A DNA stretch of 64,000 nt, taken from Spongilla lacustris (taxonomy: Eukaryota; Porifera; Demospongiae; Spongillida; Spongillidae). Location of the stretch: assembly GCA_949361645.1 (NCBI GenBank), contig OX442423.1, forward strand, positions 7,968,624 through 8,032,623. Reading direction: 5' to 3'. Position 1 is the first letter of the stretch, and each line of letters starts with the position of its first letter. Shown one piece after another: positions 1,751 through 64,000 of the stretch. The notes beneath the pieces were generated by a model. That model was given only the letters and a program-made list of their open reading frames with translations, had not been told where the DNA came from and did not search any database. A program made the position numbers and the translations under genes.

Positions 1751-3778
1751 ATGGATCACAGAGCGGCGATCGAGTCACTAGCGAATGAAGTTTCATGCCC
1801 CATATGTCGTTTAGATTTCGAAGATCCCAGGATCCTCCCGTGCGGTCACTACTACTGCAAGGAATGCATCTTTGGCGTAGCAACCAACGCCCACCCAAAC
1901 CCCTCGTTTCCCTGTCCCGAATGCAGGAGGGACACGAGGATACCAGAGGGCGATGCTGCAAACCTCCCAAAGGCACTGTTTCTGAACAGAGTGAAAAGCG
2001 TGTTGCAAAACGTGCTCCCCGCCGCCGGGGTATTGCCCTCTGCTCGATGCGGAGCTCACGGAGAACCATCGAGCCTCTACTGTACAGACTGCGAGCAGAG
2101 CATCTGTCAACAGTGCACTACATCGGACCACCTCCAGCACCGGTACGAAGCGCAGGCCCTGGTCTTTACCAGAGTGATAGAGGCCGAGTTGGCTAAGTTA
2201 TCTGAGGAGAAAGAAAGACTTGGTGCCCGCTGTCAGGCGAACCAAAGTGAGCAACAGCGAGTCCAAGATGAGCGGGCGCGTCTTTCAACGTACATTAATC
2301 AGACTTTTGAGGAACTAGTAGGGATCGTGCAAAAGAGAAAAGCGGAACTGCTAAGCCACGTGGACACATCACATGACCCCTCTTTGCATGCCCTTGCTGT
2401 ACAGAAGGCAGAGTTCCAAGCCGCTCTGTCTAAGGTTCAGCAGCTGGAAGAAAATGCAGGGAGAGCACTCCAGAATGGCGACCAGCTTGACGAAACACAT
2501 ACGAGGCTTTTATTACACAACATTGACGATGTGATTCGCCTGTGTGCTGGTTTGAATATGAATCCAAGAGCTGTGGTCAGTGCAGAGCATACTGAAGCGC
2601 AAGTCAACGTGTTCTCCGATTTAAGAAACCTATTAGAAAAAGGATGCAAAATATTTCAAGTTGCAGACCTCTCCAGGTGCACCCTGGAGGGTTTCCAGCC
2701 AACACCCACTCTCATGCAATCTGTTAACGCAGCTGTGCGTGTTCAAAATAGCAATGGCGAAATATTTCGTGAGAAGAAAGATGTGAGTGTCTCCTTAGTC
2801 AATGTGTCAATGGGTACCAGTCTACCATGCAATGTATTTGAGACACGTCCGGGAGTGTATGAGTTCTCTTATTGTGCGGTTTATCGTGGACGGCACCACC
2901 TTACAGTGGAGGTGGATGGGCAGGCCATTCCAGGCAGCCCTTTCAAAGTATTTGTGAATATTCCACCTACACAGCTTGGAAGGCCTCTCAGAGCCATTGA
3001 GGTTCATGCAACCAACTCGATCGCCTTTGGATCCGACAACTTAATGATGGTTAATGTCGGGGGAGAAGATGCCAGAGTTGTTGTCATGGATACCCAGGGA
3101 AAGCATCTCCTCAATATCCAAAGTGTTATCCGCACGCCTAACTCTCTAGCTGTTGATAGTGAAGACAACATTTATGCTGTGGACTTCCGTACATACACAC
3201 TACAAAAGTTTAGCATCCAAGGGCACCTTCTGAAGTCCATAAGGAAGGAAAGCTTCCCAGGCGGACAGTTTTCAGGAATAGGTGAAATACGGATCATCAA
3301 AGATGAACTTGTATTTGTGTGTGACACCAGCCAACACAAAATTCATGTATTGGACAAAGACCTGGTCCACCTGAGGTCTATCAGCTGCACCAGTCCCACC
3401 CTAAGTCACCCCTGTGAGCCCTCTGATTTGGTGTACTGCAAGGTTGACCAGCTGCTGTTTGTGGCTGACTGCAAGAACAAATGCATTCTGGTATATTCAC
3501 TGGAAGGTGCTCTGGTGCGAAGCTTTGGTCGCGCAGGACTGCTTACTAATAATGGCCACCGTCTGGAGAAGCCATGGAGTGTGTGTCTTGATCAATCTGA
3601 GAGCTTTTTGTTTGTTCTGGACTATGCAGCTCATCAGATCATCACCTTCACTACTGCTGGGAGGTTTGTGGGCGCATTTGGCTCGACATATTTGCAGAGT
3701 CCTGCTCGTGTGGCAGTTGACAAGGACGGATATGTGTATGTGTGCGATGAAGGTGGTAACAAAATTATAGTCTTTTGA
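1751..3778 (+). CDS. TRIM-NHL protein (RING, B-box, coiled coil, filamin, NHL)
   Basis: Single-exon gene, 675 aa from the ATG at 1751. The open frame extends to an ATG at 1667, but the RING finger starts 15 residues after the 1751 Met and the extra 28 residues look like untranslated leader, so 1751 is preferred. Domains: C3HC4 RING at residues 16-58 (CPIC, CGHYYCKEC, CPEC); B-box 2 at about 97-135 (C-x2-H, C-x2-C, C-x2-C, HLQH); an acidic, Gln/Glu-rich coiled coil at about 140-290; a filamin-type Ig repeat at about 330-430 (GVYEFSYCAVYRG, GSPFKVFV); NHL propeller repeats from about 440 to the end. The order matches the TRIM2/3/71 class. Those proteins are cytoplasmic RING ubiquitin ligases whose NHL propeller binds RNA or protein partners. 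The lack of introns contrasts with every neighbour and could mean retroposition or ancestral intron loss. Its substrate cannot be inferred. Confidence 0.9.
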   Translation: MDHRAAIESLANEVSCPICRLDFEDPRILPCGHYYCKECIFGVATNAHPNPSFPCPECRRDTRIPEGDAANLPKALFLNRVKSVLQNVLPAAGVLPSARCGAHGEPSSLYCTDCEQSICQQCTTSDHLQHRYEAQALVFTRVIEAELAKLSEEKERLGARCQANQSEQQRVQDERARLSTYINQTFEELVGIVQKRKAELLSHVDTSHDPSLHALAVQKAEFQAALSKVQQLEENAGRALQNGDQLDETHTRLLLHNIDDVIRLCAGLNMNPRAVVSAEHTEAQVNVFSDLRNLLEKGCKIFQVADLSRCTLEGFQPTPTLMQSVNAAVRVQNSNGEIFREKKDVSVSLVNVSMGTSLPCNVFETRPGVYEFSYCAVYRGRHHLTVEVDGQAIPGSPFKVFVNIPPTQLGRPLRAIEVHATNSIAFGSDNLMMVNVGGEDARVVVMDTQGKHLLNIQSVIRTPNSLAVDSEDNIYAVDFRTYTLQKFSIQGHLLKSIRKESFPGGQFSGIGEIRIIKDELVFVCDTSQHKIHVLDKDLVHLRSISCTSPTLSHPCEPSDLVYCKVDQLLFVADCKNKCILVYSLEGALVRSFGRAGLLTNNGHRLEKPWSVCLDQSESFLFVLDYAAHQIITFTTAGRFVGAFGSTYLQSPARVAVDKDGYVYVCDEGGNKIIVF

Positions 3779-3960: not shown

Positions 3961-8049
<4,089 letters not shown>

Positions 8050-8377: not shown

Positions 8378-11300
8378 TTACACATTGCTACCAGCAGTGG
8401 GTAATGATTCGTACAAGCCTTCATATACCGTGCCTTCAATGTGTTCGTATTGGTTGCATAATGGCGGGGCTTCAAGTTCGCAATAGTCATGAAGTGAGTC
8501 TCGAGCGGTGTGGGACCGCTGCCAAGAGTTGCTTTCCAGTACAGAATAGAGTGGAAGCTAAGAGCAAAAAAAAGACGACACAGTGTAAAAAGAAATAATA
8601 ATGCTAGGTGTATGGAACTATTTAGCATGCACATGTTTTAATGTATCTAGAAATAAAACCCATGCATATACTATATTTAATGAAACATATTTTGCAAACA
8701 TGCATACTTTACCTGACTGAGAAGAGCATAATCTGAGTGCAGTGCATTGCTGTTGGCATTTGGAGGATGTGATTTGCATGGTCTCATTAATTCCTCGTAC
8801 GGTTGTGGACCACTTGAAGTCTGCATTAGTATTAATTGTAGCTTATACACTATACATGTACGGACAGCTAATGAAAAACTCTTAATTACTGTAAGTACTG
8901 GTATGTTCTGACTATCTCCTATATATCTCCTCCTCCTCCCCTCCCTCTCTCTCCCCTCTCCCCCTCCTACCCTCTCCCCCTCTCTCCCCTCTCCCCCTCC
9001 TACCCTCTCCCCCCTCTCCCCCTGCATATACCGTAGTGCTTGTCATGTTGCTTGTCTGTATGACATCATAATACACCATTTCAATGTTTTCATTTGGTAT
9101 GGCCATATTGTGGTTAGCTGTAGACTGGCATGATAAACATGGTTCAGGATTTGGAATAGCTGGAGTATGTGGTAGGACTGTGAACCTAGCAGCCGAAAAG
9201 CAAATGGGTAGTACCAGTATTGAATTGCAAGGGTAACAAAGGATCATGCAAGCACAAGAGCGCATAAGAACATCTGCTGGGGTTTGCAATCACGGGTATG
9301 GACTTACTTGGGGTCAATTTCACTGCTTTGGGGAAACATAACTGATATTACCACTGCAAAAAATAACATGAAAGCAGATTGATTCAAAATCAAACCATAT
9401 AGCCATAATTACACACGAACATCAATTCTCTTACTTTTTCTGGTTTTCAAATGGCAGCCCAAAACCATCATCACCACTGCTACCACAGCCAATATGGCCA
9501 CTCCACACACTACGCCAGCTATAGTGGATCCTGCTGAAGAGAAGTCTGGCGATACCAATAGAGAAGCAGCATGATCTGAAGTGGTACTTATACCTGTTTG
9601 ATGAAATAAGTATATTATCATGCAGGGTTTCAATACCTATGCTGAAGGTCACGAGCAGTATGCAATACCTGGAGATGATTGGGGTGATGGAGAAGTTGTA
9701 ATAAATGTGTGTGGTGTTAATGGCTCAGGTAATGATGGCTGATCTGCTAATAGAAGGGGGAAAGGAATCAATTTGACATTGTAACATTTAAACTATATAG
9801 CCTTCTATATGTTTATCCAAGCTTGAATCGTGAAACAGTGGACCAAGTATTAGGCTTTATGGATCACAAAGTCAAAGCATGTGGTGCGTGCATTTTTATG
9901 TGGAAACTACTTTTCTGTTTTAAAGCAATCATTATGATGATATTAAAGTATGCAGCAGGCAGAACCTACATGATGGAGACACTTTACAACTTTGGATATC
10001 AGTCTGCAATGACATGTCATTATTCACAGGGACACCCAGAGATCCAATGGATCCATCCTCCTCCCAGTCCACCACTGAGATGTTGTAGCAGTCCACAGAG
10101 AACTCTGTTCTTATCACACCCTTGGCTGTCTCGTTCACTCTGGGTACCATCTTGTATACCACTACTCCTGACTTCTCCAAGCACACAGCACACCCCCTTG
10201 CTTGGGTACCCTCAGCAAAGAAGCAGGTCACATTCAACTGGTGGTCACTACCAGTTATGGTCGATGACTGGACATCAGTTGTGTCTATAGAGAGTGACAA
10301 CTGAATTCATCACATGGTACAAGGTCCATGTTTTCCATTCCTTACACAGAGCTTGTGGGGATGATGTGCTATTTCCAACCATATTAACAGCTGTTATAGT
10401 ATAGATGTATTTCATGTTTGGTTGAAGATACAACTTAATTTCTGTTTTATCGCTATTGGAAGGCGAATATGGTCCAAGAATTAAGGAACTGTTAACAAGT
10501 GTGGTATCAAGTTTGATGAAGTACTCTCCCACTGGGTAATCTTGACAGTGAAGAACCTGAATGAAAATTGCAAATTTAAATCCTCATAATATATCTAGAC
10601 AATAACAGACATTCTAACCCACTATTTAAACAACTATCATACCGTAATGTAAAAGTAGGCTGTAGTATTGTGCACTGATTTGACAGTTGCATTGTCTGAT
10701 AGTATTTGAGGTACTGCGGTATAAGAGAACTCATGGTAAGGAAATAATAACAACACGTAACTGTATGAGGAAACATTTAAAAATTGGTCCCCGGCCGGGG
10801 AAAAAAAAAAGTTAACACAATTAACGATCACGATGAATAACATTATGCATTTACGGTATGAGCCGAACAGCTATAGTTCGCGGCTGAAGCGCCCCGCCCT
10901 CTTTCCCTGCACTTATTCCTCTGCTTCGGTTCCTTCTCACGGTTTCCGTTATTTTCCTTACCTGTTGGCATGTTTTTAATTAAAGGTTGGCTGGCATCAC
11001 TCAGTCCTGCTGGGTTTTTTGCAATCACCGTAAACTGCATTAAACCACATGAATCCTCCGGCAAGTGATGGCGATATTCGAAGGTCTCGCTGTCTGTCCA
11101 GTTGCTTTCAAACACTTCTCCTGTCGCCTCATTTTTCACGAACACTTTGTAAAGTAGCCTAATTCCAAAAGAAAACGGCGCCGTCCAATTGATAGCAATT
11201 TCTCCCTCAGCAATGGCAGTTATGGCAAGACTCCGTGGCGGACTAGGAGAATCTATGCGTAGGGAAAACAAGCACCGCGTGCATTCATAACTATATATTC

Positions 11301-11777
11301 GTTATATCAGTTAACACATGAATCGCTTACTGTAGACCGTAAGAGTTACGCTATTCGAACATATGAAGGCTTGAGTGACTGTGTCAGTAGTGCAGCAGGT
11401 AACGGAGGTAACATTGTTCGCGTTGGTTGAATTGATGTATAGGGTCGAGTCCATTCTGGACCCAGCTTGAGATTGAGTGGCTTGAATACCTCGTGCTGTC
11501 AAAGCAACCCGATGAAGTGGCCAATTCATATTTGCCTGCTGGTTCCCCGAGTTGAATTGCAAGTTCCATCCGTTAATAGTTGCATTAACCACTGTGCAGT
11601 TGAAGTATGCGATCGCGTTCAAGGGTGACAGCACTGGCTTTGGCGGCTGGAGGAATACTCCATCTGCTGTGGAAGCGAATTTGATTCAGCTCAAGAGACA
11701 CGCCTCTTTCGACCATTCAACCACTCACCGATGCGAATTGTAAAAGCGATCCACAGAATTGGAAGTACTCTTTCCAT
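8378..11777 (-). CDS. IgR-B: Ig/FN3 receptor with multiple ITIM-like tail motifs
   Basis: Twelve exons on the minus strand, in transcript order: 11777-11729, 11666-11331, 11252-10962, 10713-10643, 10556-10346, 10284-9970, 9746-9669, 9593-9435, 9353-9308, 9185-9032, 8820-8713, 8557-8378. They total 1998 nt and encode 665 aa; all phases agree. Order: signal peptide (1-16); Ig-like domain (17-128, FNC...GW...VTCC); FN3 (129-225, INWTAP...FEYRH); second FN3-like domain split over two exons (226-319); Cys-containing domain (320-424); Ser/Thr/Pro stalk (425-450); transmembrane helix (about 473-496); cytoplasmic tail of about 165 residues. The tail carries VYYDVI and SDYALL, which fit the ITIM consensus (I/V/L/S)xYxx(L/I/V), plus YEEL, YSVL, YCEL, YEHI, YEGL and YESL. 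Many N-x-S/T sites lie outside. Known ITIMs recruit SH2 phosphatases when phosphorylated; that role here is inference. The Ig and first FN3 exons are symmetric phase 1-1, typical of exon shuffling. It lies upstream of 7TM-A on the same strand, with about 330 bp between coding regions. Confidence 0.88.
8931..9022. repeat. Polypyrimidine tract
   Basis: CT-rich low-complexity tract of about 90 bp (CTCC/CCCTCTC units), almost purely pyrimidine on the plus strand. It lies in the intron between the 9185-9032 and 8820-8713 exons of IgR-B and so is purine-rich in the transcript. Confidence 0.8.
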
Positions 11778-12489
11778 CGCTCATGTAAGACTTATAATTT
11801 TCTGGTCAACAGGAGAATGTTGGAAATCATAGCAGCACAAAACCGCGCACCAATTGTGAATAATTTGAAATAATTAAAGTATTTATACCCATGCACACGT
11901 ACATAAATGTACACACAGCAGACTAAGAAAAAAAAAATCCATTCATTTAATTCCACGAATGATCTGCATGGAATACCATATTTGGTATACAAAAGTAATA
12001 CTGATGTAGAAGAAGTGAGCGTGCGATCAATTGACACCATTTTTTATTCACAATCCTTTTACAAAGTCTACTGACTGTGTATGCTGATCAGTAAAGCCGT
12101 TTCATGCACTGACGTGATAATGGGATTAGAGTACAGGCAATACAGCTCGGTAGTCGGTAATACGCAAAAGGGGCGTAGCTTTAATTAGGTGTGTTTCATC
12201 TTAATTCATCCACAAGTATCCACCCCTCTTTACTAATCACTCAAAGCTCAAGAGAGAGCGTCATAATGAATATGATGCAGGGAATGTTGTGGTTCACAAC
12301 AAATGACATGCACGGGCCGGGTGTATAATAACGCGCACGTGCCTCCTCTTTCACGCTACTTGCTTACGCATGTACTGTCTTGACTTGAGATTTCAATTAG
12401 AAAAAAAAAATACGGGTCTTATTTTTAGTTTGGTGCCAGTAAATCGATCTGAGTGAGCACTGAGCAGTGAGCAATGATTGGTTGTACGT

Positions 12490-12516
12490 CCCCCCCCCCC
12501 CCCCCCCCCCCCCCCC
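12490..12516. repeat. poly-C run (27 C)
   Basis: Uninterrupted C homopolymer in the B/C divergent region. The G-rich complementary strand could form a quadruplex. Confidence 0.95.
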
Positions 12517-12688
12517 AATCCTCACATAAAGGAATGGGGGAACGTATTTTTAGCTGGATGATTCGTAACTAAACTGTATGACATCATTATTACACGGTCT
12601 GGGTACGAGACGTAAAAAAAAAAAAACCAAAAAAACAAAACAAAAAAAACATAAAATTAACGCATTAAATGATAAACACTGCCTACTG

Positions 12689-12691
<3 letters not shown>

Positions 12692-12725
<34 letters not shown>
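12692..12725. repeat. poly-C run (34 C)
   Basis: Second uninterrupted C homopolymer in the B/C divergent region, followed by TCCCC. Confidence 0.95.
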
Positions 12726-12728
<3 letters not shown>

Positions 12729-13012
12729 CCAAAATCGTTACGTCTCAGTGTAGTCTTTACTATTTAGTCTCTGTTATATGAGTCATGTAGCCGGCTGTAG
12801 TATGGGTAGGTGTTCTTTAGATATACAATTAAACCGATATAGCAGAACCAAAACTAAATGAGAATCCTTTTTTATGTGTGTGAAAGGCTGAAAGCTATAA
12901 GATTTTAGTTCCGCAAAATGTGAAAACATCAGCCTCACGTGACTGTGCATGTGCACAGCATGCATGTATTAAATCAATAAAGGCGGTCGTTTGCACACAT
13001 TGGACGGATGAG

Positions 13013-16000
13013 ATGGCACTCCATCGTTTCGCTACATTCGTGCTTGGCTTGCAAATTTTCGTCGCTGGTGGTAACAATGTTTCAGGTCAATCTCTGCCAT
13101 AAAACTGCATGTTAATAATTACATTTCGTCTTGCAGACTTATTCTTGGTGGTACCGCATTCGGTCCAGGCGCCTGTGTACCACATTGTGACGTTCAACTG
13201 TACAATTTCGGGCGGTCAGCTGCAATGGGCTGTTAGATTTAGTGCCGGCAATGCAGCAGTGCTGTTTTGGCCTTTCCAATCTCGGGATCTCCTTCGCCGC
13301 GGTGTGTATGCCGTGAACAAGACTGTCAGTGATTCCACCTTGTTCATCAACGCCACGGAACAGAACAACGGTACGGAGGTGCAGTGCGTGGCAGCAGTAA
13401 AAACGTTTCTCAACAAAACCGAGATAGCGAATCTTACAGTTTTCGGTAAATTTCAGCACGATATACGTTAACGTTATGCGCATGTATTTATTCCTGCTTG
13501 CACGCATGCTTTCTGCACAGGGCCTCCCATGGCTCCGGCGAATCTGAGCGTGTCTTTTTTAGACGATTCGCACGCCTTCATCAGCTGGATTCCTCCGTTT
13601 GTCCTTCAGGGAACGAAGATCTGGTATAGGGTATACTCGAGGTTAGTGGTCCGCAACAATACCACGCCTGCCTTAGCGTTTGAGGGGGCGGTTACGACGA
13701 ACTTTTATCAATACGAGTATCACAACTCTGAGGTCGGTGTTTGTTTGGAGTATCAGTTTGCAGTGGAGGCGGAAAATGAGGCTGGTGCGAGTGTTCAGAG
13801 CCCGCTTCTTGACACAATATTGCCTACACGTGAGCAGATTTTCGTGCAGTATCATTTAATAGTTATCACACCAGGTGCAGTATTGTTGTGAGTAAAGAAA
13901 TGCGCTTTTACTGCAGCGCCCCGCTTCGCAAGTGAACCAAGCAGCACTGTAGTGGTAGTCGGATCTAGCGCGTGCAACGTATACTTCAAACTTCAAGTGT
14001 GTCACGTGCCAATGCGCAATGCATTACGTAATTTTCTCACTTTGCAGGTAACATTTTGTGGAGATCTGCTTGTTGATTACTGTTTAAAACTAATGCGCAG
14101 CACCATCGCGAATGCTTCGTTAACGCTTGGACAGTGTACCTTAGTCCAAAATGGCAGCTGTGATGCGGTTATAATAGCTCAACTACAGCCCAATGCCGAG
14201 TACACGTACATAATCACAGCCTCTAACGTCATTGGAAATGCAACAACTTCAGCACAAACATTATGTGAGAAGCGTCATTTAAATCATTGCTCAATTGATG
14301 CATGCATTAAATGTATTTTCTTATGCATTGTGGTTCTGCATGTTGAACAGACACAACTGATGTCCAGTCATCGACCATAACTGGCAGTGACCACCAGTTG
14401 AATGTGACCTGCTTCTTTGCTGAGAGTACCCAAGCAAGGGGGTGTGCTGTGTGCCTGGAGAAGTCAGGAGAAGTGGTATGCCAGATGGTACCCAGAGTGA
14501 ACGAGACAGCCAAGGGTGTGATAAGAACAGAGTTCTCTGTGGACTGCTACAACATCTCAGTGGTGGACTGGGAGGAGGATGGGTCCACTGGATTAATAAG
14601 CATTCCCACAACTATCAATATCATCCCACAAGCACAGTGTAATACCAAAATTGTGCAGAATAGCATGGAACTATCCGGTAAGGTCTGCAAATTCCTGTAT
14701 ATCTCACAACAAAAGTAATTTATTATATGTTCACATTAAACACACGTGTACAATGAAATATCTGTGTATATTTGTAATGATACTTTTGTAAGTAAGATGA
14801 AGTGACGTCAACAATGCCAATTTGTAAATAGCAGTCAATTCTCTCAATTTCCATACAGCAACTGCCACCAGGTGGTTTTCAGCATCAACTTCTCAACAGC
14901 CATCACCTTATCTGCAATCAGAACCAACACCTTCACTGTTATCCTCACCACCCACATTGTCACCCTTGTCACCTTCACTGTCATCATCACTATCCTTATC
15001 CATAGCGCTGATAGTTATTGGGGTATTACTTGGAGCAAACATCTTGGCGTGTTCTGCAGTTATCATGATTCGATGCCATACAAAGGCTAAGAATAACAGT
15101 GAGCCATTTTGCTTGTATGCAGTTTCATTGTGCTTTTCATTTTCAGAAATCATCAGTTCCGTCACCCTTTCAGCAGCTAAAGGGAGCCAGTGAGTACATG
15201 TATGCAACTCAGATACCATACACATGCTCCTTATGGAGAGTCTCTTAGAATTGTTCAGTTTTTTGCAGTTATCTTTCATGTACAATATGTAGCACAATGT
15301 GTAGACAGATAAGGCACTTTGGATACTGAGCCATGTACCAAAGTATTTTCTGATTTGACATCCAGTTATGTGTCCCATCCCATAGTTGCTCTGGCACACG
15401 GAATGATCCTAATTCACCCACACTTGACTGTGATAACTTGGAGATGGCAGTGTATGACAGCATCGCAATGTCACCTACTACAGGAGAGGTGAAAGTTGGG
15501 AGTGCATATGCATGTGTGCAAGCACATAACAACATTGATGACATTGAGTATTTCTACATGTTGTGCCACTCATACATTTAGCTGTGTATGTATTTAAAAA
15601 ACATTATGCTGTCAACAATTTATCTGCTCTATATAACATTCATTTCAGAAAATGAACACATATTCACACTACAGTGCACTGGAAAGACCTTACTCCCCGT
15701 GCCAATCCACATGTGAATCCAACATTGTGTTAGGGCAGGTATGAGTAGGTTAATTGAAAACTGTGGATTAATTAATGCAGTAACCTCTTTATCTTACCTT
15801 CTTGGTTTTCTTTTTTGTGTAACTGCAAAATTAACTTTAATTCCATTAAATTTTTTTTTTCTATTGTACATGCAGGAGGAGTCTTCGTATGCTGTTCTTG
15901 AAAGTCCATGCAAGTCAACTGGTGGGCCCTACAACATGAACCTGTATTTCGAGCTTGAACTCCAACCCAATGAATACAACTCAGTTGTATCCAATCCACT

Positions 16001-16079
16001 TTCACTGCCATCAGTACCGATGCAGTTAAAGGATGCTTCGAATAATGCTCCCACTCCATCTTCTGGTACCAATATATGA
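13013..16079 (+). CDS. IgR-C: Ig/FN3 receptor with consensus ITIM tail
   Basis: Eleven exons: 13013-13070, 13137-13445, 13521-13829, 13917-13996, 14048-14264, 14351-14677, 14859-15098, 15147-15189, 15386-15488, 15649-15738, 15876-16079. They total 1980 nt and encode 659 aa; all phases agree. Order: signal peptide (1-19); Ig-like domain (20-122, FNC...QWAV...VQC); FN3 (123-225, ISWIPP...YEYHN); second FN3-like domain (226-323); Cys-containing domain (324-432); Ser/Pro-rich stalk and transmembrane helix in one exon (433-512, helix about 480-502); tail to 659. Tail motifs: SHYSAL and SSYAVL fit the ITIM consensus; YDSI, YFEL and YNSV are related. It is the divergent partner of IgR-B and has the same exon plan, except that B has an extra intron between stalk and helix, so one intron was gained or lost. 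Its Cys-domain exon is almost identical to those of B and D. A type I plasma-membrane receptor with inhibitory-type signalling is likely; the ligand is unknown. Confidence 0.88.
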
Positions 16080-16941
16080 TGACATATTGAATAATTATAC
16101 CGTTATTATTATTATCTATATCGGCATGATTTTTATCTACCTCTCATTCTATGTCCCTTTCCTTTTTTCTTAAAAGAAAGTTCAGTAAACTAGAGTTTTA
16201 TTGAATATTCGTTTGAGTTGCGAGATTTGATTCGAGCGTGGGTGTCAAAAGGTTTTTCATGCAGTGCATGTTTGCTAGAATGTCATATACATATGTACGT
16301 GTGTGTTTGCATGGGTGTGTGGGAATGAGTGGGAGTTACGTTCGCGCATATGTATATACAGTATATATGTGATCAGTATAAGGCTTGTGTATATATGCTA
16401 GCTAGTATGTGTATATCAATTGGCGCAACCACTAACGTGTCACTACCTCCATTACTATACTCAATATTACTGCCACAACAATCACCTCCCTCCTCCACCT
16501 GTACTGTAGTAACTGCACAACACATAGGCCACTCCTTGCAAGGGTGCATACCCTAGCTAGCTGTGTATCAGTGCATGGCTCTTCATCCCCAAAATCACCT
16601 CTACATAATTTTATGCACGTGTCATGTATATTAGGTATATAGGTCTATCCGATGCAATAGCGTGTCATTCACTATACTTATGCATTTGAGATCGAGGTGG
16701 TGGTTGCCCGTTATCTTCTAGCATAACCACATGCACTGATCTGATGATTCTGAAGCCATGAAAAATTTATTAAAAGCGGGAGGGAACTCTGCAAGTGGGT
16801 TTTCCGTCTTCGAAGAATAATTAAATTTTACTGTCACAGTAATATTATGATTACAATATCCACGTGACGCATGCATTCAGATTAGTGATGTCATCCCCAA
16901 CACCGTCAATGAGGTCTTTTCCAACAGCTGATAAGATATAC
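16080..16941. other. intergenic, nothing recognised
   Basis: About 860 bp between IgR-C and IgR-D. I see no exon, array or mobile element. It should include the IgR-C 3' end and the IgR-D promoter, but no clear signal stands out. Confidence 0.5.
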
Positions 16942-19388
16942 ATGGCTGCCAAAATATTCTCGCTACGATCCATCCCCGCTGCACTTCTAACGCTTTCTGC
17001 TTTTTTCTGCGCTGTGAGTAAGTTGGTTTATAAGGGATGCGCATATCATAATGGTGATAAGCTTATAAATGCATATATCCGCGCTGTACTGACATAGGTT
17101 CAGATATAATCGTTACGCCACCGCTTTTGGCAATTGAGGCCCAAGGTGGGGACGCCTCGTTCACCTGCACCGTAACTGCGGTACAAGGCGCGGTTAGCGG
17201 CATACAGTGGTACATCGAGTTCCCGAGCGGGGACGTATACTACTGGCTGTGGCACCAGGCCGCGCTGCAAGGCATGGGGTTCATGGCCGAGACTTCTGGC
17301 TTGTCATCGACCTTGCACGTCCCGGCCACAACAGCGACAAACGGTACCCTGGTAAAATGCATAGCATCTCTGGGCGACGTCGGTATCACCAGCGAATCTT
17401 CTAGGGTTTATGTCTTTGGTATGTATATAAAATTACATATATATATATATTATATATCAGTCGTATATGTACAGTGTAGGTATATACCTTTGCATATACG
17501 TGTTTATGCGTATACTGATTCATAGTGTTCCGTGCACCAACAGATCGTCCATCTCGTCCTACGAACCTCTCACTCTCGGCAGCAGGAGAGCGCAGATTAA
17601 TCTTTGCTTGGAGTCCCGTGTTTGCTCCCGCTGGGGTCGTGACATGGTACACAGTCATTGTGAGGGACAAGACGGAAGGCGGGAAGGTAGTCTTAAACAG
17701 CTCTGCAGCAGAAAACGTGTCGTACGAATATCGCCACGACACCAGTTACCCTCCTTGTCACGTGTACACGTTTAGTGTAATGGCTTCCAATGCAGCTGGA
17801 AACGGAGATCCTAGTGAAAGTGTCGCAACTACTATACCAATAGGTATGCTGCATGCATATGGTAATGCAGTTACTTATATACCTGCATGATGCATGGACT
17901 GAAGCAGTTACATGCATGCATGTGGTTGTGTTCATTCAGTGTGGATGGGCTAAGGGGCTTATATGTATTCCTCAAACAGTACCAGAGTTCTCTATGGAAC
18001 CAGTGCATGTCCAAATTACATTCAATCCAGCCTTCATAAACTACTGGATTCAAGTATGTTATATTTATTCTGTGCCACATTCTATTGATAATTTACATTG
18101 CTGCAGCCACCTAATGTTTGCCCTGACTTTCCAGTGAAAGGGTATTTTCTGAAACTTCAGAACATGAATGGTGGTAGCACTGTATCGTTTGGACCCTTTT
18201 CGCTCAATCCTAATGCCTCCAACCTACACATTGCTATTCCCCTGTCCAGTGGGCTTCAAAAAGAATCAATGTACAACTGCAAAGTTGAGGTGTTCAATAC
18301 TGTTGGAAGTTGTACAGCAGCTCTTGTGTTGTGTAAGCTTATAGTTGGGGTGTTCGATGTTATCTATAGTACACACATGCAGACACAACTGATGTCCAGT
18401 CATCAACCATAACTGGTAGTGACCACCAGTTGAATGTGACCTGCTTCTTTGCTGAGGGTACCCAAGCAAGGGGGTGTGCTGTGTGCCTGGAGAAGTCAGG
18501 AGAAGTGGTATGCCAGATGGTACCCAGAGTGAACGAGACAGCCAAGGGTGTGATAAGAACAGAGTTCTCTGTGGACTGCTACAACATCTCAGTGGTGGAC
18601 TGGGAGGAGGATGGGTCCACTGGACCACTAAACATTCCCACAAATATTAATGTTAATCTACAAGCACAATGTGATTCCACAACTGGTGTCGGACTAGGTA
18701 TGTACACTAAATACTTACTATAATTGCCCTGGGTATTTCATGATTTCACCATGTTTCTACCCCACCTCCAAACAGTTGCTGTGGAGAGCAGCATTCCAAT
18801 TGCTATGTACATTGTGATATCTACTGCTTTTGCAACAATTGTTGTCCTTGTACTGGTGATAATTATATTGCTGGGAATTGTAAGGCACTACCGGAAGAAT
18901 AGGTAAAAGCATTTGTTTTATGCTCCACCTATTAGTAGAAATTATTTTGTGCAGATGCATTTTTTCATTTAATTATGAAAATGCCATTGCTATTTTACAC
19001 TTCAGCACGACAGAAATCCACAACAAAATACCACAAAAACTTCCAATTCGGCTGAGGACCCAGCAGAGCACCAGTTCAGAGACAAACCTCCTGCCATCTC
19101 CAGTCACTGAGCAGAGCTTACCATCTGAGCAGAGCTTACTATCTCCAGTCACTGAGCAGAGCTTATCGATATCCAGCAAGCAGACCTGCCCATTTCCATC
19201 CTCTCACTGTGGCATGCTGGTAGGAAATCATCCCTTTGTCTTGCACTGAATTTATGTTTAATAATGGTGTATTTGATTATTTATTTAATGATCATTGTTT
19301 TATTGTGTGACCTCTAACATTTCAGGTCAGTTTGCATAGCTCTACAATGGATACTAAGGACTGCAACTCTCGTTCTACCCAGGTTTAA
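16942..19388 (+). CDS. IgR-D: Ig/FN3 receptor with motif-free tail
   Basis: Nine exons: 16942-17017, 17104-17418, 17544-17843, 17980-18053, 18107-18332, 18383-18697, 18776-18902, 19006-19219, 19326-19388. They total 1710 nt and encode 569 aa; all phases agree. Exon 1 uses the strong donor GTAAGT at 17018. The frame is open upstream to 16864, but the Met at 16942 directly precedes a typical signal peptide. Order: signal peptide (1-24); Ig-like domain (about 26-130, FTC...IQWYI...VKC); FN3 (131-230); second FN3-like domain (about 230-330); Cys-containing domain (331-435); transmembrane helix (about 444-470) with no separate stalk exon; basic stop-transfer HYRKNR; tail of about 90 residues. The tail is Ser/Gln/Pro-rich with a short internal repeat (SPVTEQSL twice, SEQSL once) and has no tyrosine beyond the membrane-proximal HYRK. 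It keeps the ectodomain plan of B and C but not their signalling motifs, so it may be a decoy or a partner-dependent chain (inference). Confidence 0.86.
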
Positions 19389-19396
19389 ACAAATGT

Positions 19397-19402
19397 AATA
19401 AA
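19397..19402 (+). terminator. poly-A signal of IgR-D
   Basis: Canonical AATAAA nine bases after the IgR-D stop codon. It would give a very short 3' UTR, which suits this compact genome. Confidence 0.45.
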
Positions 19403-19917
19403 CACTAGTACTCCTAGGCATACATGATATTCTGATATTTGAATTTATTCTGCATTTATTGACTGAAGTCAGAAAGATGCACTTGTTTTATTAAGTAAAC
19501 CTGCACTAGACCCTGCATAGAATGTATACGTGCGTGTGCTCCTCGAATTGCTAAGCACTGCCGGATGTGTTTTGCAAGACAATTACATTTACATTAAAAA
19601 CATACTTTTCATCACATTAAAAATTGGTACAGGTACACTTTAAACTTGTATCACAAAGTCAAAGTTCCTTAATAAACTGTGCTCTCCTTTGTTGAGTAGG
19701 TGGTCCACCAAATTAATGTCGAGAAAGGGGATGAGTTCCCTGTGTCTTGGATTCTAATTGTATTAATAGCCAAATGCTAATGCATGTACACATACACAAC
19801 CATAATTATTCAGTTATGTCATCATCAACATTCGTGATTTGGATCTTTAAAGTATTGTGTTGATCACAACTCCAGCCATTGTAACCTTATAAGTACATCT
19901 TCAAACTAAGAAAGTAT

Positions 19918-19918
<1 letters not shown>

Positions 19919-19958
<40 letters not shown>
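19919..19958. repeat. poly-C run (about 40 C)
   Basis: The longest homopolymer of the window; G-rich on the minus strand. Its true length may be uncertain in the assembly. Confidence 0.95.
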
Positions 19959-20463
19959 ATCAACAACATGCATGCTAGAGAATCCATTATTTGGATGACT
20001 TACCTTGTATCTCCAAGCTTATTAATCCACATCAGTTGAGTTTATTATGCTTGGGAACTGATTGCACCTCCTCTCCTTTTCACCTCCATAAAAGTATACT
20101 ACTGACTGGCTCAGGTATAGTAATGTGACGCGTGCTGACATCATGCGTGTATATACTCATCATGAATACTGGCATACAAGTTCAGTACATGTACTGCCCT
20201 TAACACACACCATAATTCAAACAAAAGGCTTTTTAAACAAGTCGGTTTGAAATAAGTTGAAGCAGGCAATTCGAAAAAGTTAATTCGTTTAAGCTCTTGG
20301 TCTTCTCACGGTCGCAGTTATGCTTTGTATGCATATACACTGCTGATAGGTGTGGTCAATACAACTATATGTATTTTGTCTGGGGATAAGATGGGCTGCA
20401 TTCCACCTATAATGCACGTATAGGGCCTATGTTGATGCATTGGGTATGCCAAAGAAGCTACCA

Positions 20464-20465
<2 letters not shown>

Positions 20466-20485
<20 letters not shown>
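20466..20485. repeat. poly-C run (20 C) followed by A9
   Basis: Homopolymer pair about 390 bp upstream of the IgR-E start. Confidence 0.9.
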
Positions 20486-20494
<9 letters not shown>

Positions 20495-20876
20495 CGTACT
20501 GCTTTACATACAAATTTGAGCATGCGTGTGTGTGGGGGAGGGAGGGAGGGGGAAGAAACAAATGATGCTACGAATTGCTGTGATGTCATTTGGAACAACA
20601 GGCTGTCAACAACAACACAAAGTACAAACTGACTGTACGATCACTGACATATCCGGCTCACTATGAACATATAGATATTAGAGTAATATCTATGCTACGA
20701 CAAAGCATATAGACGTGCACTATATTGCATTGTTAGAGGAATATGTGACCTTGGTTCCTCACAACAACATGCCACGCCCATTCCTTTACCCACGCGTATG
20801 TGTATCGGAGGTAATATATTTACACCCAAATTACACGTATATCTCATTGCGTAAGCCGTTTGAAGATCAAGCGCGT

Positions 20877-22705
20877 ATGATGGTGCCTTGGGCTTTGCGG
20901 CTGTGCGTATGGCTACTGGTTATTGGCTACCGCGGTGAGTACTAACTGATATGCAGGCGTAGGTCGCATGGAGCCTCCGATAACTTACCTACTCGTGCTT
21001 GCGTGTACATGTATAATCGAGCTAGACCGTTCGCACGGGTCCATTCTTTGCAGTGTACATGATGTACCGTTCCTATTATTTAGTCTGCACGCGCGGTTAG
21101 ACACGTGCTGAGCTGCTAAGATAGCGATCGCTTGTCACCTTGTCACCTTCATGCGCGCAAGATTATTGTGGTACCGCGTAATATATGCATGCAGAAGCTC
21201 ACGATGAGCTATGACTATAATGCTGTTTACCGCAGGTGCGCGGATGAGGGATACAAATTCATACTTTGCGTTAGCGTTAGTCATATCAACTTCATTCATT
21301 CTCTGTTAAATGCTGTAGGCTTATAGTTGCCAATTTTGTACATGTGTACATGCATGTATACTTACTTTGCAGTATCGTTGATATCTGCTGATTGCGAAGA
21401 GTACACGAATGATGTCTACCAGTTCTACAATCTTACTGTATTGGTCCCTATGAATGGAACAGCTGCCTTTCTTTGCAATGTGACGACTCAAGATGCTAAT
21501 TTATTTATATCTACTGGAATTTGGTGGTCATCGACAACAGGGGGTGAAATGCTCAAATATTATGGAATAAACGTACAAAACGTCGACAACCAGGCGGTGA
21601 TTGTGAATGTCAATGGCAGTATTACTTCTGACAATTTATCAATTAGCTGCTATTGCTACAATAACATATTAATTCCTGCGAAAGTATTCGAGGCGCACAT
21701 CCATGTATACGGTCAGGACCTGTATGTGCTAAATTGAATGCATGACTAACATGCATGCACCTTTGTCTTTAGGTCCACCCTCTCCTCCGACTAATTTGTC
21801 GTTGTCTGTTGCTGGTACAAACCTTAACCTATCTTGGACTGCTCCATTGGCACCACCAGGTGTAACGGTGTGGTATCACGTGATTATTGCTGGTTACAAC
21901 AGCGCACCGACTATATACCTGTCAAATGTCACTCATTATGCAACGAATCTTCCGAACTGTCTTCAGTGTAAGTTGTCTGTGCTGGCGATTAACGGAGCAG
22001 GGACGAGTGCTCCCAGCAACACAGTGACGTTCACAACAACCAGTGAGTAGTTTGAATTTTTTTTTTGCATCATATTTACGTACTGCATGTTCTTTGTTCC
22101 TGAAGCAGATGCGACAAGCCCTCTAGTATCGCAGCCAGTAACGCTATCACCATCACATCAACAATCATTAGGTGAGTGGTTGGATGTGTTTTGACTTGCA
22201 AAGCTCATGCATTTATTTAATTTCCCCATACAGAAGACTACACAGTACCACTTCTTGCTTTTGTCATTGTGGCGCCTGTTGTAGGACTTTGTGTCATAGC
22301 ACTCATTATTATTTCGATCGTGGCAGTCAGAAGTTGCGGATCTAGACTTAAAATACCGCAGCCAGGTATGCGCTCCGCGTTTCGGCTAATTAACCATTGT
22401 AATATGTGAAGTTATGTTGACACGCATGCCGTAAGCATTTAGTTATGGCTGATACACATGCACCTTTCCATCCACGTCAGTTTGACATGCGGATCAATTG
22501 GAGAAATTGGTTCATGACATATACGTTTAAACTTAACTTTACACAGCACCCCCTGCATGGGTAAATAAATTAAGCAGGGCATCTTGCATAATTTTATTTA
22601 TATCATTATATTGCAGGACTGACTGCTCATATTCAGGTTCCAGGTATTACGCGGTCCATATCCGCATCACCAAATGATCACCCACCCCCCCATCATCAAG
22701 CTTGA
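20877..22705 (+). CDS. IgR-E: short Ig-FN3 receptor, tail without tyrosine
   Basis: Six exons: 20877-20934, 21373-21711, 21773-22042, 22109-22171, 22234-22365, 22617-22705. They total 951 nt and encode 316 aa; all phases agree. Translation may start at either of two adjacent ATGs (20877 or 20880). Order: signal peptide (1-19); Ig-like domain (20-132, FLCNV...IWWSS...ISCYC); FN3 (133-222, LSWTAP...VWYHV); short Ser/Thr/Pro stalk (223-243); transmembrane helix (about 249-274); tail of about 40 residues rich in His and Pro, with no tyrosine. It lacks the second FN3-like domain and the Cys-containing domain of B, C and D. The Ig, FN3 and stalk exons have the same symmetric phase 1-1 borders as its neighbours, so a B/C/D-like ancestor could have lost the middle exons without a frame change (inference). 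Confidence 0.85.
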
Positions 22706-26578: not shown

Positions 26579-26957
26579 CGCCAAAACATGCAAGTGCCCC
26601 CCCAGCCAAGAAGTAGCCACCACGCCACTGCTGAGCTCCTCTTATAGTATAGGTATTTCCCCGCAGGACCCCCCAGACCTTGGGTTTATAACACATACGT
26701 ATACTGAATCGGAGAGATTACATCATCGCTAAGTCTTATATACATGTATACCGAATGTAGTGGTGATGTAATCTATTGGACTTATGCAAGTGACTATAAA
26801 TCGAGGTCTGCGCATGTGTCACAAAATATAGCACAATTGCGTAGTATTTTTTCGATGCTAAAAACAGATTGATTAGTGATTTAAATTTAAAAACGTAAAT
26901 ATAACAAAATCATTATCGCTTACAGCTTTATATATGTTCTACACAATAACAAGTCAC

Positions 26958-27300
26958 GAAAATGATGCCGATCGAGCCAGGAGGGCTCGGGCATTTTGCC
27001 TCAGAACAGTGCCGAGGCGACAATATATTGCATTTAGCATTTCAGTATTGGATGAGTGGGAGTGGATGGCCAAACGCCTAGCAATTCTTGAGAATGTTTG
27101 TTTTGCAGTGATTCCCCAGCCGCCATATGCCTCCACTACGAGAGGGACACATATCCAACCTCTTTCCAGACAACCCAAAGCATTGTTTTCTAATTTCTCT
27201 TGTTCACCCACTGCAGCTGAGGCACCTGAGGTCTGACCAGCATCTGAAATCAATGAATTATTGAGGGGATGTATAACCTTGATGTCAAATGCTGCAACTA
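26958..27300 (-). pseudogene. retroelement relic (3' end of ORF, R2-like endonuclease family)
   Basis: The minus-strand frame carries the C-terminal signature GWICVPLVVEAYGGWG, followed by a helical SRIARRLAIHSHSS segment. The same sequence recurs at 60552-60870 (-), and related signatures (PLVMESYGAWG, VVESYGAWG) occur at 31989-32904 and 29175-29660. The 32-kb copy shows that this segment lies downstream of a zinc knuckle and a restriction-like endonuclease domain. This copy retains only the last part and is non-functional. Confidence 0.65.
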
Positions 27301-27586
27301 AATACGACCTTAGACGTACAGTTATACTTCGTTACTGAACTTGAGATATACCATTTGACGAGATTTGTAGACCGTCCTGAATGCGAGGCGCCGGCCCTTC
27401 ATTATAAAATGGGCGTGGTCGAGTAGAAATAGGACGCTGGAACTATTGCACCACTTCCGCCAGTCCAGTAGCCGCTAGATACGTGGATTATAACTAAACA
27501 ATAATCATTGGTTATACCTATACCGTACCCAAATAGTTATTAAAATCAATTTTGTTTCGCCTCGTTGAAGCATAGATATTCGATCG

Positions 27587-36900: not shown

Positions 36901-37242
36901 GCGCCTGCCAAGAGCTGCAGAAATGTGGTGCACAGATCAGGGCACGCCCCTTCCAGTATACTACGGTACCTCAGGTGGACCTAGACAGCTTTGTGCTCTA
37001 CTCTGTTGCTTCTAAGTTGAGGGTAAGAGAATAACTAGGCAGGTGTCAACAAGGTGCCTAGCATATACACATGTACCACATATATGTATATGTTAGTATG
37101 ATCTCCTCCCCTCCCCCCACAGGCAAAGTTATTTGGTATCCCGATCTTTCCATGGATGTTGTATGTGGCTGCTGTTCTGCTTCCATTTATGATCATTGTG
37201 TTGGTGAAGACAGGTGCATATCACCTTTTCACTCATTTCTAA
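30983..37242 (+). CDS. 7TM-F2: unrecognised seven-helix membrane protein
   Basis: Twelve exons: 30983-31125, 33346-33418, 35349-35432, 35493-35630, 35720-35902, 35959-36023, 36081-36200, 36252-36438, 36507-36606, 36677-36813, 36885-37022, 37123-37242. They total 1488 nt and encode 495 aa; all phases agree. Exon 1 ends in phase 2 (CCC AG|GTTAGC) and joins the second exon (ATAG|G ATG GAC GAT) in frame. The Met opening the second exon (33347) could start a 447-aa shorter form. The N-terminal region (about 110 aa) is polar and acidic (MDDEPESNQNHQQEQ). Seven hydrophobic helices follow in the same places as in 7TM-A, with the same motifs ([40 protein letters not shown]). Intron 1 contains a retroelement relic and intron 2 a 0.9-kb minisatellite. 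Donor GTGGGC after exon 8 is weak but shared by F2, F3 and F4. Function unknown. Confidence 0.82.
31240..31520. repeat. degenerate CA-rich simple repeat
   Basis: ACACAC-rich stretch with an imperfect duplication: GTACGCACTCGCACGTAC-type phrases recur at about 31218 and 31381. It lies in intron 1 of 7TM-F2. Confidence 0.7.
31989..32904 (+). pseudogene. non-LTR retroelement relic: R2-like zinc knuckle and endonuclease
   Basis: Inside intron 1 of 7TM-F2. An N-terminal segment (31989-32222) has SWLKLFMLPKCVLPSSKRCG. The C-terminal segment (32226-32904, one frameshift near 32345) has ADKARLLSVSSPHAGSWLSV, then a zinc knuckle CPLC...HHAVTC (C-x2-C...H-x4-C), SRHNKLRDV, then RPADLLVPNW...AAFDLSV, and finally PLVMESYGAWGKEA. 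The knuckle followed by RH(D/N) and a PD..D-type motif fits the restriction-like endonuclease of R2-type retrotransposons. The reverse transcriptase expected between the two segments is missing, so this is an internally deleted, dead copy. Assignment to a clade needs a search. Confidence 0.72.
33648..34553. repeat. 40-bp minisatellite, about 22 copies, two alternating types
   Basis: Tandem 40-bp units built on ATACACCCTCCTAGTTACAG then TGACCCACAACACCCCGTGC. Many neighbouring units alternate between CACAAC...CCCGTGC and CACAGC...CCCATGC, giving a partial 80-bp higher-order period. The array lies wholly in intron 2 of 7TM-F2. There are no unique spacers, so it is not a CRISPR-type array. Confidence 0.95.
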
Positions 37243-48947: not shown

Positions 48948-51243
48948 ATGTCACTAAGTTTCGCCTTTTCACTACTTTTCTTTTGTTGCCAGGCCTACGA
49001 AGGTAAGCGGTCAAACGAGCCTTGTCCCGTGCATTCAATATTTCCCGGACTATATACTTACACGTGCAAACGTGCATGCATGTACGTCTCTTCCATGAGA
49101 AGCATGCATGCTGCATGTACTGTGACATGTACATCGACGTGTTCATGTATGTTCTATTTCTGTTCTATATCCAAGGTCAAGCCGATATCACAATAGCACC
49201 CCTGGTACAGATCACACGACCTGGACAAATCTTGAACTTCACCTGTACATCGGACACGTGCTCTGACGGTATCTCCGTATTCGTAAATGAATCGCCATAT
49301 ATATTTAGTCTGAGCGATTACATGTACACTACAGACTGTACGGAAAGCACCACATTCTTAATATTCACCTTGACCACCCAACTCAACAACACTGTCATAT
49401 TCTGCAGAGATGATTACGGCAGTATTAGCGACAATGCGCACATTTACTTTGCTGGTAATTGCATAAATGCTCGTATACTTCAGTGTACACATATATGAGC
49501 TAATATACGTACCTGCCCCTTTGTATTTTCCACCCAAACAGAACCGCCCCAATCTCCCAGCCCGAGGATATCTCTGCTCAACGCTTCTGCTTTTCTACTC
49601 CAATGGAAGGAGCCGGTCACGTTGCCATACAGCAAAGGTGTTACGTACTACAAACTGAAGATGTACAACAGCAGCGGTCTAGAGTGGCGGAAATGGACCA
49701 TCCCTGCTAATGAAAACTACACGTACAGTTATGATACTGCTGTGACCCTCCGAGCGTTCAGTGACGTTACCCCAGACAAAATAAGCGAAGTATCGGTAGA
49801 AATTTATGTGCGTTACGCACCGCAGCAATGCAACGAACTGGTATTCTACGTCAGCGCAGGGAATGGTGACGGGGAAAGTAACCCTCGGGCCATCAGAGGC
49901 ACTATTCAAACGGGTAACTTAAGGAATGAATGTACTATATATTTTCCTGCGTTATTAATTATAAGGTGGCAAATAATATTATAATACATGTATACAGCGC
50001 TCATGTGGTCAGCCGCACAGCCATTCACATTGGCTCAATTGTGTAAAGCAGATGGGACTATACGCATACTGACAACCATTGCTGTAAGTTGGTCTTTCAG
50101 CTGCATGGCATGGTTTCTGCATGGAGCGAGCTTACATAACCTATAATTATTATTTTGCTGATCTTCTGATCTCTTGTTGCATAGCCTCCTAATGTATGCC
50201 CTCAGCCGGTATCGTATTCCATCATCTTGAATTGCAATTGGACATCAGAAATCAAAGATACCCTTCAGAGCAACACGGCGGAAAAGGAGTTCAATTATTT
50301 GACGACACTGGCCCGTATACCTAAAGATGGTGTTTATAACGTTACTGTATCGGTACTGGTGACGGCTGGTAATCAACAGGGTACCATTCGTGGCGTAGTA
50401 CAAATACAAGTAGGCCGCGGCTGCGGTAATGACCTAGGTAGGTCATGCTGTGTAGTAACTGTGGGAGGAGGATGTCATGCAGCTAAAGTTAAAAACATTT
50501 AATCACGTGTATACGGTGATATACCGGTACCCCGCGCGGCCTCAAAATACAAATAAATAAATAAATAAATAAAGATTTTGAGGTCGGATTTAGAATGGTT
50601 TTGAAATGTTTACTTGGTCTAATCGCGCATATGCATACGGTATATCGCGGTGTAATGTGCATGTGTGTGTGTTTGTGTCAAATTGTGTGTGTGTGTGTGT
50701 GTGGTGGGGGGTTAATCAGTGCGATAAATGTTTTGTTGTCCTCCATATCGGCTTACTATGGAAATGTATAGTCCTGCTTGAGGGCAAAAGTATTTAGCCA
50801 ATGTCAGTTTTCTGCCAGACCGGCCACAATAATACCGAGTATAGGCCCATGCTTTTCTATAGGCGGACTAATTAGACAATGAATGCTATTAAATCTCGCA
50901 TCTATCTATATAATGCCTTCTTATTTCAGTCGATTGGACTGCAAATGGTTTAACTTCATGCAGCAATTCTCCACCAATCATATCTGGATGCGTTTGCTTA
51001 ATTTTGACACCAGCATTGTCCATTCTAATTGGAGCCCTTCTGTGGAAGGAAAGAGGTTAGAGCGTAGATATTAAACTACATGACTAGTTGTTAATAACTC
51101 ACACCTGCATGTATGCAGCTACAGCCAGAAGAAGAAACACAGCCAATGTTCAGCGTCGCGACGAGCGGATCAATCCAATGTACACGGAGACCTCCGAGGC
51201 GAGAGGACATATATACGAACACGTTGAAAAATATCAACAATAA
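48948..51243 (+). CDS. IgR-G: Ig/FN3 receptor with short two-tyrosine tail
   Basis: Seven exons: 48948-49002, 49176-49454, 49542-49913, 49998-50083, 50185-50437, 50930-51055, 51119-51243. They total 1296 nt and encode 431 aa; all phases agree. Order: signal peptide (1-18); Ig-like domain (19-111, LNFTC...VIFCRD), which lacks the usual strand-C tryptophan; long FN3 (112-235, LLQWKEP...VFYVSAG); second FN3-like domain starting PPNVCP, as in IgR-D (from about 265); transmembrane helix (about 367-386); tail of about 40 residues with an Arg-rich stop (RRRNT) and PMYTET, HIYEHVEKYQQ. Only YEHV resembles a YxxV docking site. The exon plan matches the first five exons of B, C and D, but the Cys-domain exon is missing. 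It lies 26 kb from the main cluster, separated by 7TM genes. Confidence 0.84.
50680..50702. repeat. (GT)n microsatellite
   Basis: About 10 GT units followed by a G-rich stretch, in the 50438-50929 intron of IgR-G. Confidence 0.85.
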
Positions 51244-51497: not shown

Positions 51498-55176
<3,679 letters not shown>

Positions 55177-63936: not shown

Positions 63937-64000
63937 GTAAGAGAATAACTAGGCAGGTGCCAAAAATGCATGCCTAGCACATATGTGTATTTGTTTGCAT

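Follow-up and report, generated by a model that had tools for sequence, protein, structure and literature searches.

The 64,000-nucleotide stretch of the Spongilla lacustris genome analysed here, called the window below (contig OX442423.1, numbered C10; C10:7968624-8032623), lies in a cluster of receptor genes whose immunoglobulin (Ig) heads and fibronectin type III (FN3) domains have diverged while one membrane-proximal (MP) exon is nearly identical from gene to gene. From the sequence comparisons, the MP exon is best read as having undergone concerted evolution by gene conversion after Spongilla and Ephydatia muelleri separated, the heads being orthologous between the two species. The explanation favoured here, with rather less than even confidence, is that the products are contact receptors in which the heads are specific to each gene and a common module serves assembly in cis.

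Five receptor genes lie in the window: B (8378..11777, minus strand; 12 exons, 664 amino acids), C (13013..16079, plus; 11 exons, 664 amino acids), D (16942..19388, plus; 9 exons, 571 amino acids), E (20877..22705, plus; 6 exons, 316 amino acids) and G (48948..51243, plus; 7 exons, 431 amino acids). All are intact and spliced, and they encode type I receptors composed of an Ig head, FN3, one hydrophobic helix and a cytoplasmic tail. The models were assembled manually with GT-AG introns and then verified with a script; signal peptides and membrane helices were judged by eye. All five reading frames are open from ATG to stop with no internal stop codon; positions 8378 and 22705 are the stop codons of B and E, respectively. 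The genes share a common plan, in which the signal exon ends in phase 1, the Ig and FN3 exons are each of phase 1-1, and a single transmembrane (TM) exon is accompanied by tail exons. A second FN3-like domain in B, C, D and G is spread over two exons of phases 1-0 and 0-1, and B, C and D carry the MP exon, of phase 1-1 as modelled for these three genes. The full layout of B is thus signal peptide, Ig, FN3, split FN3, MP, an extra linker exon ahead of the TM exon, TM and a tyrosine-rich tail ending in SNV. Gene E has a signal peptide, Ig, FN3, a short linker exon, TM and a short tyrosine-less tail, and lacks both the split FN3 and MP; gene G, whose domains were read from exon layout and sequence, has a signal peptide, Ig-like, FN3-like and split FN3-like domains, TM and a short tail with YEHV, also without MP. 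An initial annotation, made by a model from the letters of the window, had described clustered Ig/FN3 type I receptors with phase 1-1 domain exons and differing tails, and the rebuilt models agree with it for all five genes. Its domain list of signal peptide, Ig, FN3 and helix also holds, but the split second FN3 and the MP exon had been overlooked.

The cluster extends beyond the window. At least 11 receptors occupy about 150 kb (C10:7.965-8.117 Mb), the six outside the window being R1 (7.965 Mb, minus), R7 (8.052 Mb, minus), R8 (8.063 Mb, minus), R9 (8.071 Mb, minus), R10 (8.104 Mb, plus) and R11 (8.114 Mb, minus); an MP-bearing gene away from the cluster, R12, lies at C10 6.93 Mb (plus). 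R1 and R7-R12 were followed one exon at a time, without full gene models. The genome searched comprised 248,560,934 bases in 51 contigs, of which C10 accounts for 9,179,552 bases; the assembly report gives 248.7 Mb in 70 scaffolds for odSpoLacu1.1 and 9.18 Mb for chromosome 9 (OX442423.1), and names the public alternate haplotype of the sequenced specimen, GCA_949361655.2 (PMC12141999). At E<=0.001, MP was found in nine copies at C10:7.965-8.115 Mb and one copy at 6.93 Mb, with none elsewhere in the genome. Nine of the eleven cluster receptors bear it, namely B, C, D and the six just outside the window. Two ectodomain queries, the FN3 pair of C and the Ig and FN3 of R9, matched on C10 only at the same threshold. 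These searches used single-protein queries, which remote members may escape, and FN3 domains are common genome-wide (1305 candidates, of which 150 were scored). The cluster is a real, conserved receptor cluster. No description of this family was recognised in titles and abstract openings of published work on sponge Ig receptors, allorecognition and immunoreceptor motifs, and the words immunoglobulin, fibronectin and allorecognition occur 0 times in the main text of the Ephydatia genome paper.

The likeness of the MP copies is confined almost entirely to one exon. The MP exons of the window are at 9970..10284 in B (minus; the homogenised island is approximately its first 240-265 bases), 14351..14677 in C (plus) and 18383..18697 in D (plus; fold model m51ce4620844b). 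Among the nine cluster copies (36 pairs, 237 bases), DNA identity is 95.8-98.7%, with a mean synonymous divergence (dS) of 0.033 (0 to 0.059) and a mean nonsynonymous divergence (dN) of 0.026, and dS between these copies and that of R12 is 0.58-0.68. The 22 variable sites are spread 8/7/7 over the codon positions, which indicates that the identity is maintained at the DNA level, beyond protein constraint alone. Mean protein identity among the nine paralogues is 31% for Ig (range 23-55), 34% for FN3 (26-48) and 94% for MP (90-99). When 2.0-2.5 kb around each copy was compared (blastn, word 11, E<=1e-5, one aligned stretch per pair), 34 of the 36 pairs aligned for 239-300 bases over the MP exon only, starting at most 13 bases from its 5' end. 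The exceptions are B/R7, with 413 bases at 88%, and R8/R9, with 549 bases at 96.9% that extend back across the intron into the split FN3 exon. The R8/R9 tract (R8 C10:8.0632-8.0638 Mb, R9 C10:8.0706-8.0712 Mb) is read as the product of a fresh conversion or duplication, and could be dated.

Three other sources of the MP identity were considered. Purifying selection as the sole cause is rejected on the low dS, the even spread of variable sites and the dS near 0.6 to the 6.93 Mb copy. A mobile element was judged unlikely, because all ten MP copies accompany Ig/FN3 receptor exons, with none elsewhere at the search threshold, and each starts at the same base after the intron AG, in the same place as in Ephydatia. 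Collapse of copies during assembly is also unlikely, because the copies carry their own changes and a second species has its own homogenised version. Assembly contigs are short (N50 0.3 Mb), and the 230 kb around the cluster hold 200 N.

The comparison with E. muelleri, the source of the best protein relatives, was made on protein sequences. For eight receptors, three in the window (B, C, D) and five beyond it, that species has one-to-one orthologues, among them P0006 (EMCRGX_G012053) for B, P0009 (EMCRGX_G012054, a truncated model) for C and P0001 (EMCRGX_G012056) for D, the last at 54% identity over its full length. P0006 lends independent support to the model of B, with which it agrees over the parts compared (Ig, FN3, MP and tail), and its annotation lacks the VYYDVI-bearing stretch of the model. 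R1 and R7 gave no clear orthologue in Ephydatia, and no separate search was made for E and G. The orthologues of B, C, D, R8, R9 and R10 are collinear by their Ephydatia gene numbers (G012053, 54, 56, 72, 73 and 79), provided that these numbers follow position. Two near full-length relatives, P0005 (516 amino acids on a 1826-base contig) and P0007 (484 amino acids on 1715 bases), are on contigs too short for introns and therefore look like spliced transcripts, apparently cDNA of R8- and R9-type receptor relatives. The cluster in Ephydatia (EMCRGX_G012041-G012079, or Em0006g437a-468a) thus resembles that of Spongilla in orthology, domains, the recognisable tails of B and D and the order of six genes; it differs in the residues shared by its own MP exons, and its EMCRGX entries are named only hypothetical protein.

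The heads and the MP exons of these orthologues give different histories. Over ten comparisons in eight genes, identity between orthologues is 50-74% for Ig, 57-70% for FN3 and 62-91% for MP. MP identity is 94% among seven Ephydatia sequences (21 pairs) and 86% between the species (63 pairs), and the Ephydatia mean falls to 89% (28 pairs) when the drifted P0001 is added; these counts leave out P0010 and P0012, in which MP is truncated, and P0014, the orthologue of R12. In the head tree (25 rows) the eight orthologue groups are well supported and the species label changes 10 times, with R1, R7, E, G, P0008, P0010 and P0012 unpaired and in some cases long-branched. The label changes only twice in the MP tree (21 rows), a number as low as this being reached in 0 of 500 shuffles, and with 16 MP sequences a tree constrained to the orthologue pairing was rejected by the approximately unbiased (AU) test (p=3e-6), species grouping equalling the best tree. 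Because MP groups by species while the heads pair as orthologues, MP looks homogenised within each species.

The same comparison bears on whether the cluster is an allorecognition complex of the kind represented by Alr of Hydractinia or fuhc of Botryllus, in which polymorphic heads tell self from non-self. Strain-specific fusion and rejection occur in freshwater sponges. Mean identity between species is 62% for Ig and 63% for FN3 over eight orthologue pairs (Wilcoxon p=0.81), and this equal divergence, together with the conserved orthologues and gene order, is unlike allodeterminants and argues against simple allorecognition. The arrangement itself speaks for such a role, since Ig superfamily (IgSF) receptors that are clustered and bear immunoreceptor-like tails have been described in the case of Alr and of the Botryllus fester co-receptors (FcoR) (PMC12065747, PMC11067881), and the Alr-type cluster of IgSF type I receptor genes is present here. 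The initial annotation had suggested an early-animal allorecognition or immune receptor complex. Its immune-receptor-like layout stands, with clustered Ig/FN3 receptors bearing tyrosine-motif or tyrosine-less tails; the allorecognition role is not supported, given the conserved one-to-one orthologues in a related species, found for eight receptors, that it had itself named as an argument against the idea. From these sequences allorecognition is a possible role and not the leading one, and is regarded as improbable.

A better candidate for allorecognition on these grounds is perhaps a second, larger Ig/FN3 family, which is more variable in copy than the window cluster. It has 15 MP-like exons, 94-99% identical to one query, at C2:18.60-18.77 Mb, C23 (a contig of 151,798 bases), C22:5.13 Mb and C7:3.16 Mb. 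For 12 of the copies, the Ig exon immediately upstream, assigned by position, is 49-81% identical to one query, and a set of 12 MP copies has a mean dS of 0.030 (66 pairs). The stretch that is alike spans about 590 bases and takes in DNA upstream of the exon; the likeness in this family may have recent duplication as its source. That C23 is the other haplotype of C2:18.6 Mb is not supported, in that a 1.2 kb probe, the only one used, matched most C2 copies over about 590 bases only. Searching with the MP of R12 gave distant relatives (34-40% identity, E 0.005-0.45), of which that at C23:57-62 kb adjoins open frames judged by eye to be Ig-like, FN3-like and TM-like. A third group of MP-like exons lies at C10:0.88-2.31 Mb, mostly 73-84% identical to the second-family query.

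The domain assignments were examined at the level of sequence and of predicted structure. FN3 of C, D and E passes the Pfam cut-off, that of B scores 23.7 against the required 25 bits, and fn3 is matched by 10 of 12 relatives at E<=0.01; no domain of gene G, and none of the Ig heads or MP, was recognised by Pfam above cut-off. In structure prediction, Ig and FN3 folds were obtained for MP and for the one receptor folded, the D orthologue, whose head has a V-type Ig fold, the other heads being Ig by sequence resemblance only. MP is predicted to be an FN3/Ig-like module. Against PDB sequences the Ig head of D gave weak matches, mainly to antibody V domains (best E 0.0013). The Ig and FN3 ectodomains of the initial annotation thus agree with the prediction for the one receptor folded, in which no other type of fold appeared.

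The tails were searched for the strict immunoreceptor tyrosine-based inhibitory motif (ITIM; [SIVL]xYxx[ILV]), for the corresponding activation motif (ITAM; a spaced pair of Yxx[LI]), for YxxPhi and for a C-terminal PDZ ligand ([ST]x[VIL]), all in their familiar forms, with chance estimated by shuffling. In B (tail exons 8378..9185, minus), all nine tyrosines are in YxxPhi (YYDV/YDVI, YEEL, YALL, YSVL, YCEL, YEHI, YEGL and YESL), a number reached in 0 of 2000 shuffles, and two overlapping pairs have ITAM spacing (P=0.003). The tail of the Ephydatia orthologue P0006 keeps eight of the nine tyrosines and seven of the nine YxxPhi motifs, with 0 ITAM-spaced pairs in the strict L/I form. Gene C (tail exons 15386..16079, plus) has five YxxPhi (P=0.006; YDSI, YSAL, YAVL, YFEL and YNSV), including SHYSAL and SSYAVL, and ends in TNI; the motif is absent from the tails of D and E and occurs once in G (P=0.30). 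Gene D ends in STQV, of PDZ-ligand type. Tails were compared for 14 MP-bearing proteins, namely B, C, D and 11 relatives from databases, and nine of them have a C-terminus of the form [ST]x[VIL], which E and G lack; a rough binomial estimate that assumes a 4% background gives 4e-10, several of the 14 being mutual orthologues and hence dependent, and 7e-7 for 6 of 10 separate genes. The genome holds 68 SH2 matches, so possible readers of tyrosine-motif tails are present. The differences in tail type given in the initial annotation are upheld. YxxPhi is enriched in B and C, ITAM spacing exceeds chance in B but has no strict counterpart in its Ephydatia orthologue, and an excess of strict ITIMs is not clear.

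These tails, together with the V-type fold of the D orthologue, would also suit innate immune receptors for microbes or for an algal symbiont, such as the green alga Choricystis present in the sequenced specimen. The heads would then form a germ-line repertoire for foreign surfaces, with B and C as activating members beside tail-poor partners. Matches listed in searches with the sponge receptor proteins, which also bear on homology to cnidarian Alr proteins, were from Ephydatia, unnamed proteins or generic FN3/titin-like proteins, the sensitivity of these word-based searches being limited and two of the three being capped at about 8000 scored candidates; a single freshwater sponge is the source of the named relatives among them, so that the family may be restricted to this lineage. 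In other sponges, genes with Ig and FN3 are described as shifting expression on microbial challenge (PMC6208332). The Ig heads, however, have evolved no faster than FN3 between species, unlike receptors driven by pathogens, and an innate immune function is considered rather unlikely.

Several observations weigh against a shared module maintained for a common function. E and G sit inside the cluster without MP. The ratio dN/dS among MP copies is about 0.8, recent changes being weakly purged, and a neutral by-product of conversion therefore fits as well as shared function. The GC content of third codon positions is higher in MP than in FN3 (p=0.012) and not higher than in Ig (p=0.13), a mixed result that makes the signature of biased conversion weak. 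The MP tree is poorly resolved, with 0 of 18 inner branches well supported; the MP of P0001 has diverged from the other Ephydatia copies (77% identity to P0003); and the two species were compared in MP at the protein level. In the tails, strict ITIMs are not clearly above chance in B (2, P=0.077) or C (2, P=0.0545) and are absent from D, E and G.

The dN/dS value and the even spread of sites over codon positions are also what would be seen if the genes were general adhesion or developmental guidance receptors with a role like that of contactin, LAR or sidekick, each with a fixed task, and if the homogenisation of MP were a neutral by-product of tandem arrangement and similarity. The eight one-to-one orthologues, six of them collinear by gene number, agree with this explanation, as do the nearest folds by structure, which include NCAM2, LAR, contactin and integrin beta-4. 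It leaves less well accounted for that conversion holds a single 250-base exon alike while Ig and FN3 diverge to 31-34%, and that seven tyrosine motifs of the B tail are conserved. In addition, the unlinked second family repeats the pattern with its own MP, and neutral evolution alone would not be expected to single out this domain on two occasions. This alternative is doubtful, if a serious one.

The preferred reading remains that of contact receptors that share an assembly module. The distal Ig head and FN3 stalk are particular to each receptor and would provide gene-specific recognition, and gene conversion would keep MP near-identical within each species. Through the common MP, members may associate laterally in cis or bind a single common partner, and different heads would then feed one complex. 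Tyrosine-rich members (B and C and, going by the Ephydatia orthologue, R10) would use SH2 proteins for signalling, and tyrosine-poor members such as D, possibly anchored by C-terminal PDZ-ligand motifs, would act as partners or modulators. The role in cell contact, the assembly in cis, the direction of signalling and the anchoring by PDZ ligands are inferred.

The closest functional analogues are the clustered protocadherins of vertebrates, which are likewise tandem cell-recognition receptors with a homogenised membrane-proximal ectodomain and a divergent distal part. In fugu, homogenisation of this part is attributed to lineage-specific regional gene conversion (PMC1852091), and EC5-EC6 of protocadherins are described as giving promiscuous cis pairing (PMC7811963). 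Protocadherins differ in having cadherin repeats, where the sponge receptors have Ig/FN3 by Pfam FN3 families and predicted folds, and in splicing variable exons to common constant exons, whereas all five window models have their own TM and tail exons. In vertebrate paired receptors (Siglec-11/16, CEACAM, CD300), gene conversion inside Ig receptor clusters and tails of opposite kind are also reported; there, according to the accounts consulted, conversion keeps the extracellular ligand-binding part alike, and in the sponge the reverse is seen, the distal head differing and the membrane-proximal part being alike. The Alr genes of Hydractinia are described as a cluster encoding single-pass IgSF receptors, of which some have ITIM/ITAM-type motifs; Alr1 and Alr2 stand out by their high polymorphism and their control of fusion, with homophilic trans binding as a further trait of an Alr-type complex, the sponge cluster being known here from its sequence alone. 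The FcoR of Botryllus are presented as type I proteins with a variable-type Ig, ITIM/hemITAM and a core YxxI/L/V motif. They differ in their Sushi and C2-type Ig domains and in pairing with fester genes, and the sections of the source consulted mention neither FN3 nor an MP exon.

The neighbouring genes of the window are of several kinds. A multi-pass membrane protein gene is repeated among the receptors at 3961-6436 (minus), 35285-37034 (plus), 45311-46736 (plus) and 62855-63948 (plus); three pieces of its product gave no Pfam match, and no PDB sequence matched. A TRIM-type open frame at 1646-3778 (plus) has RING, B-box, filamin repeat and NHL repeats, and an LCAT-like acyltransferase gene of at least two exons at 51498-54441 (minus) adjoins receptor G. 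At 42362-42893 a Gly-Pro-Ala/Val/Thr collagen-like repeat with units of 18/27 bases gives one collagen-like frame per strand, with Pfam collagen on the plus strand. The open frames at 26954-27331, 32119-32904 and 60549-60857 have a common YGxWG-type stretch and are probably pieces of a repeated element; that at 32119-32904 has no Pfam match.

Candidate genes for allorecognition are reported to lack conservation between sponges, cnidarians and ascidians (PMC12065747). A conserved cluster with signalling-type tails and a module kept alike by conversion offers a small, concrete set of genes for recognition between neighbouring cells in early animals, and it shows the same evolutionary pattern as the clustered protocadherins in unrelated proteins. 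A more far-reaching idea, suggested by that analogy and held to be improbable, is a protocadherin-like identity system in sponges, in which receptors with their own Ig heads and MP as the constant domain would pair promiscuously in cis, the mixture of heads forming a contact code read through the tyrosine-motif members. If this were so, the unlinked families at C10:8.0 Mb and at C2:18.6 Mb, with C23, C22 and C7, would be separate pairing groups with their own constant domains, and the variable-constant logic of receptors would exist in an animal that has neither neurons nor lymphocytes, where it might serve allorecognition.

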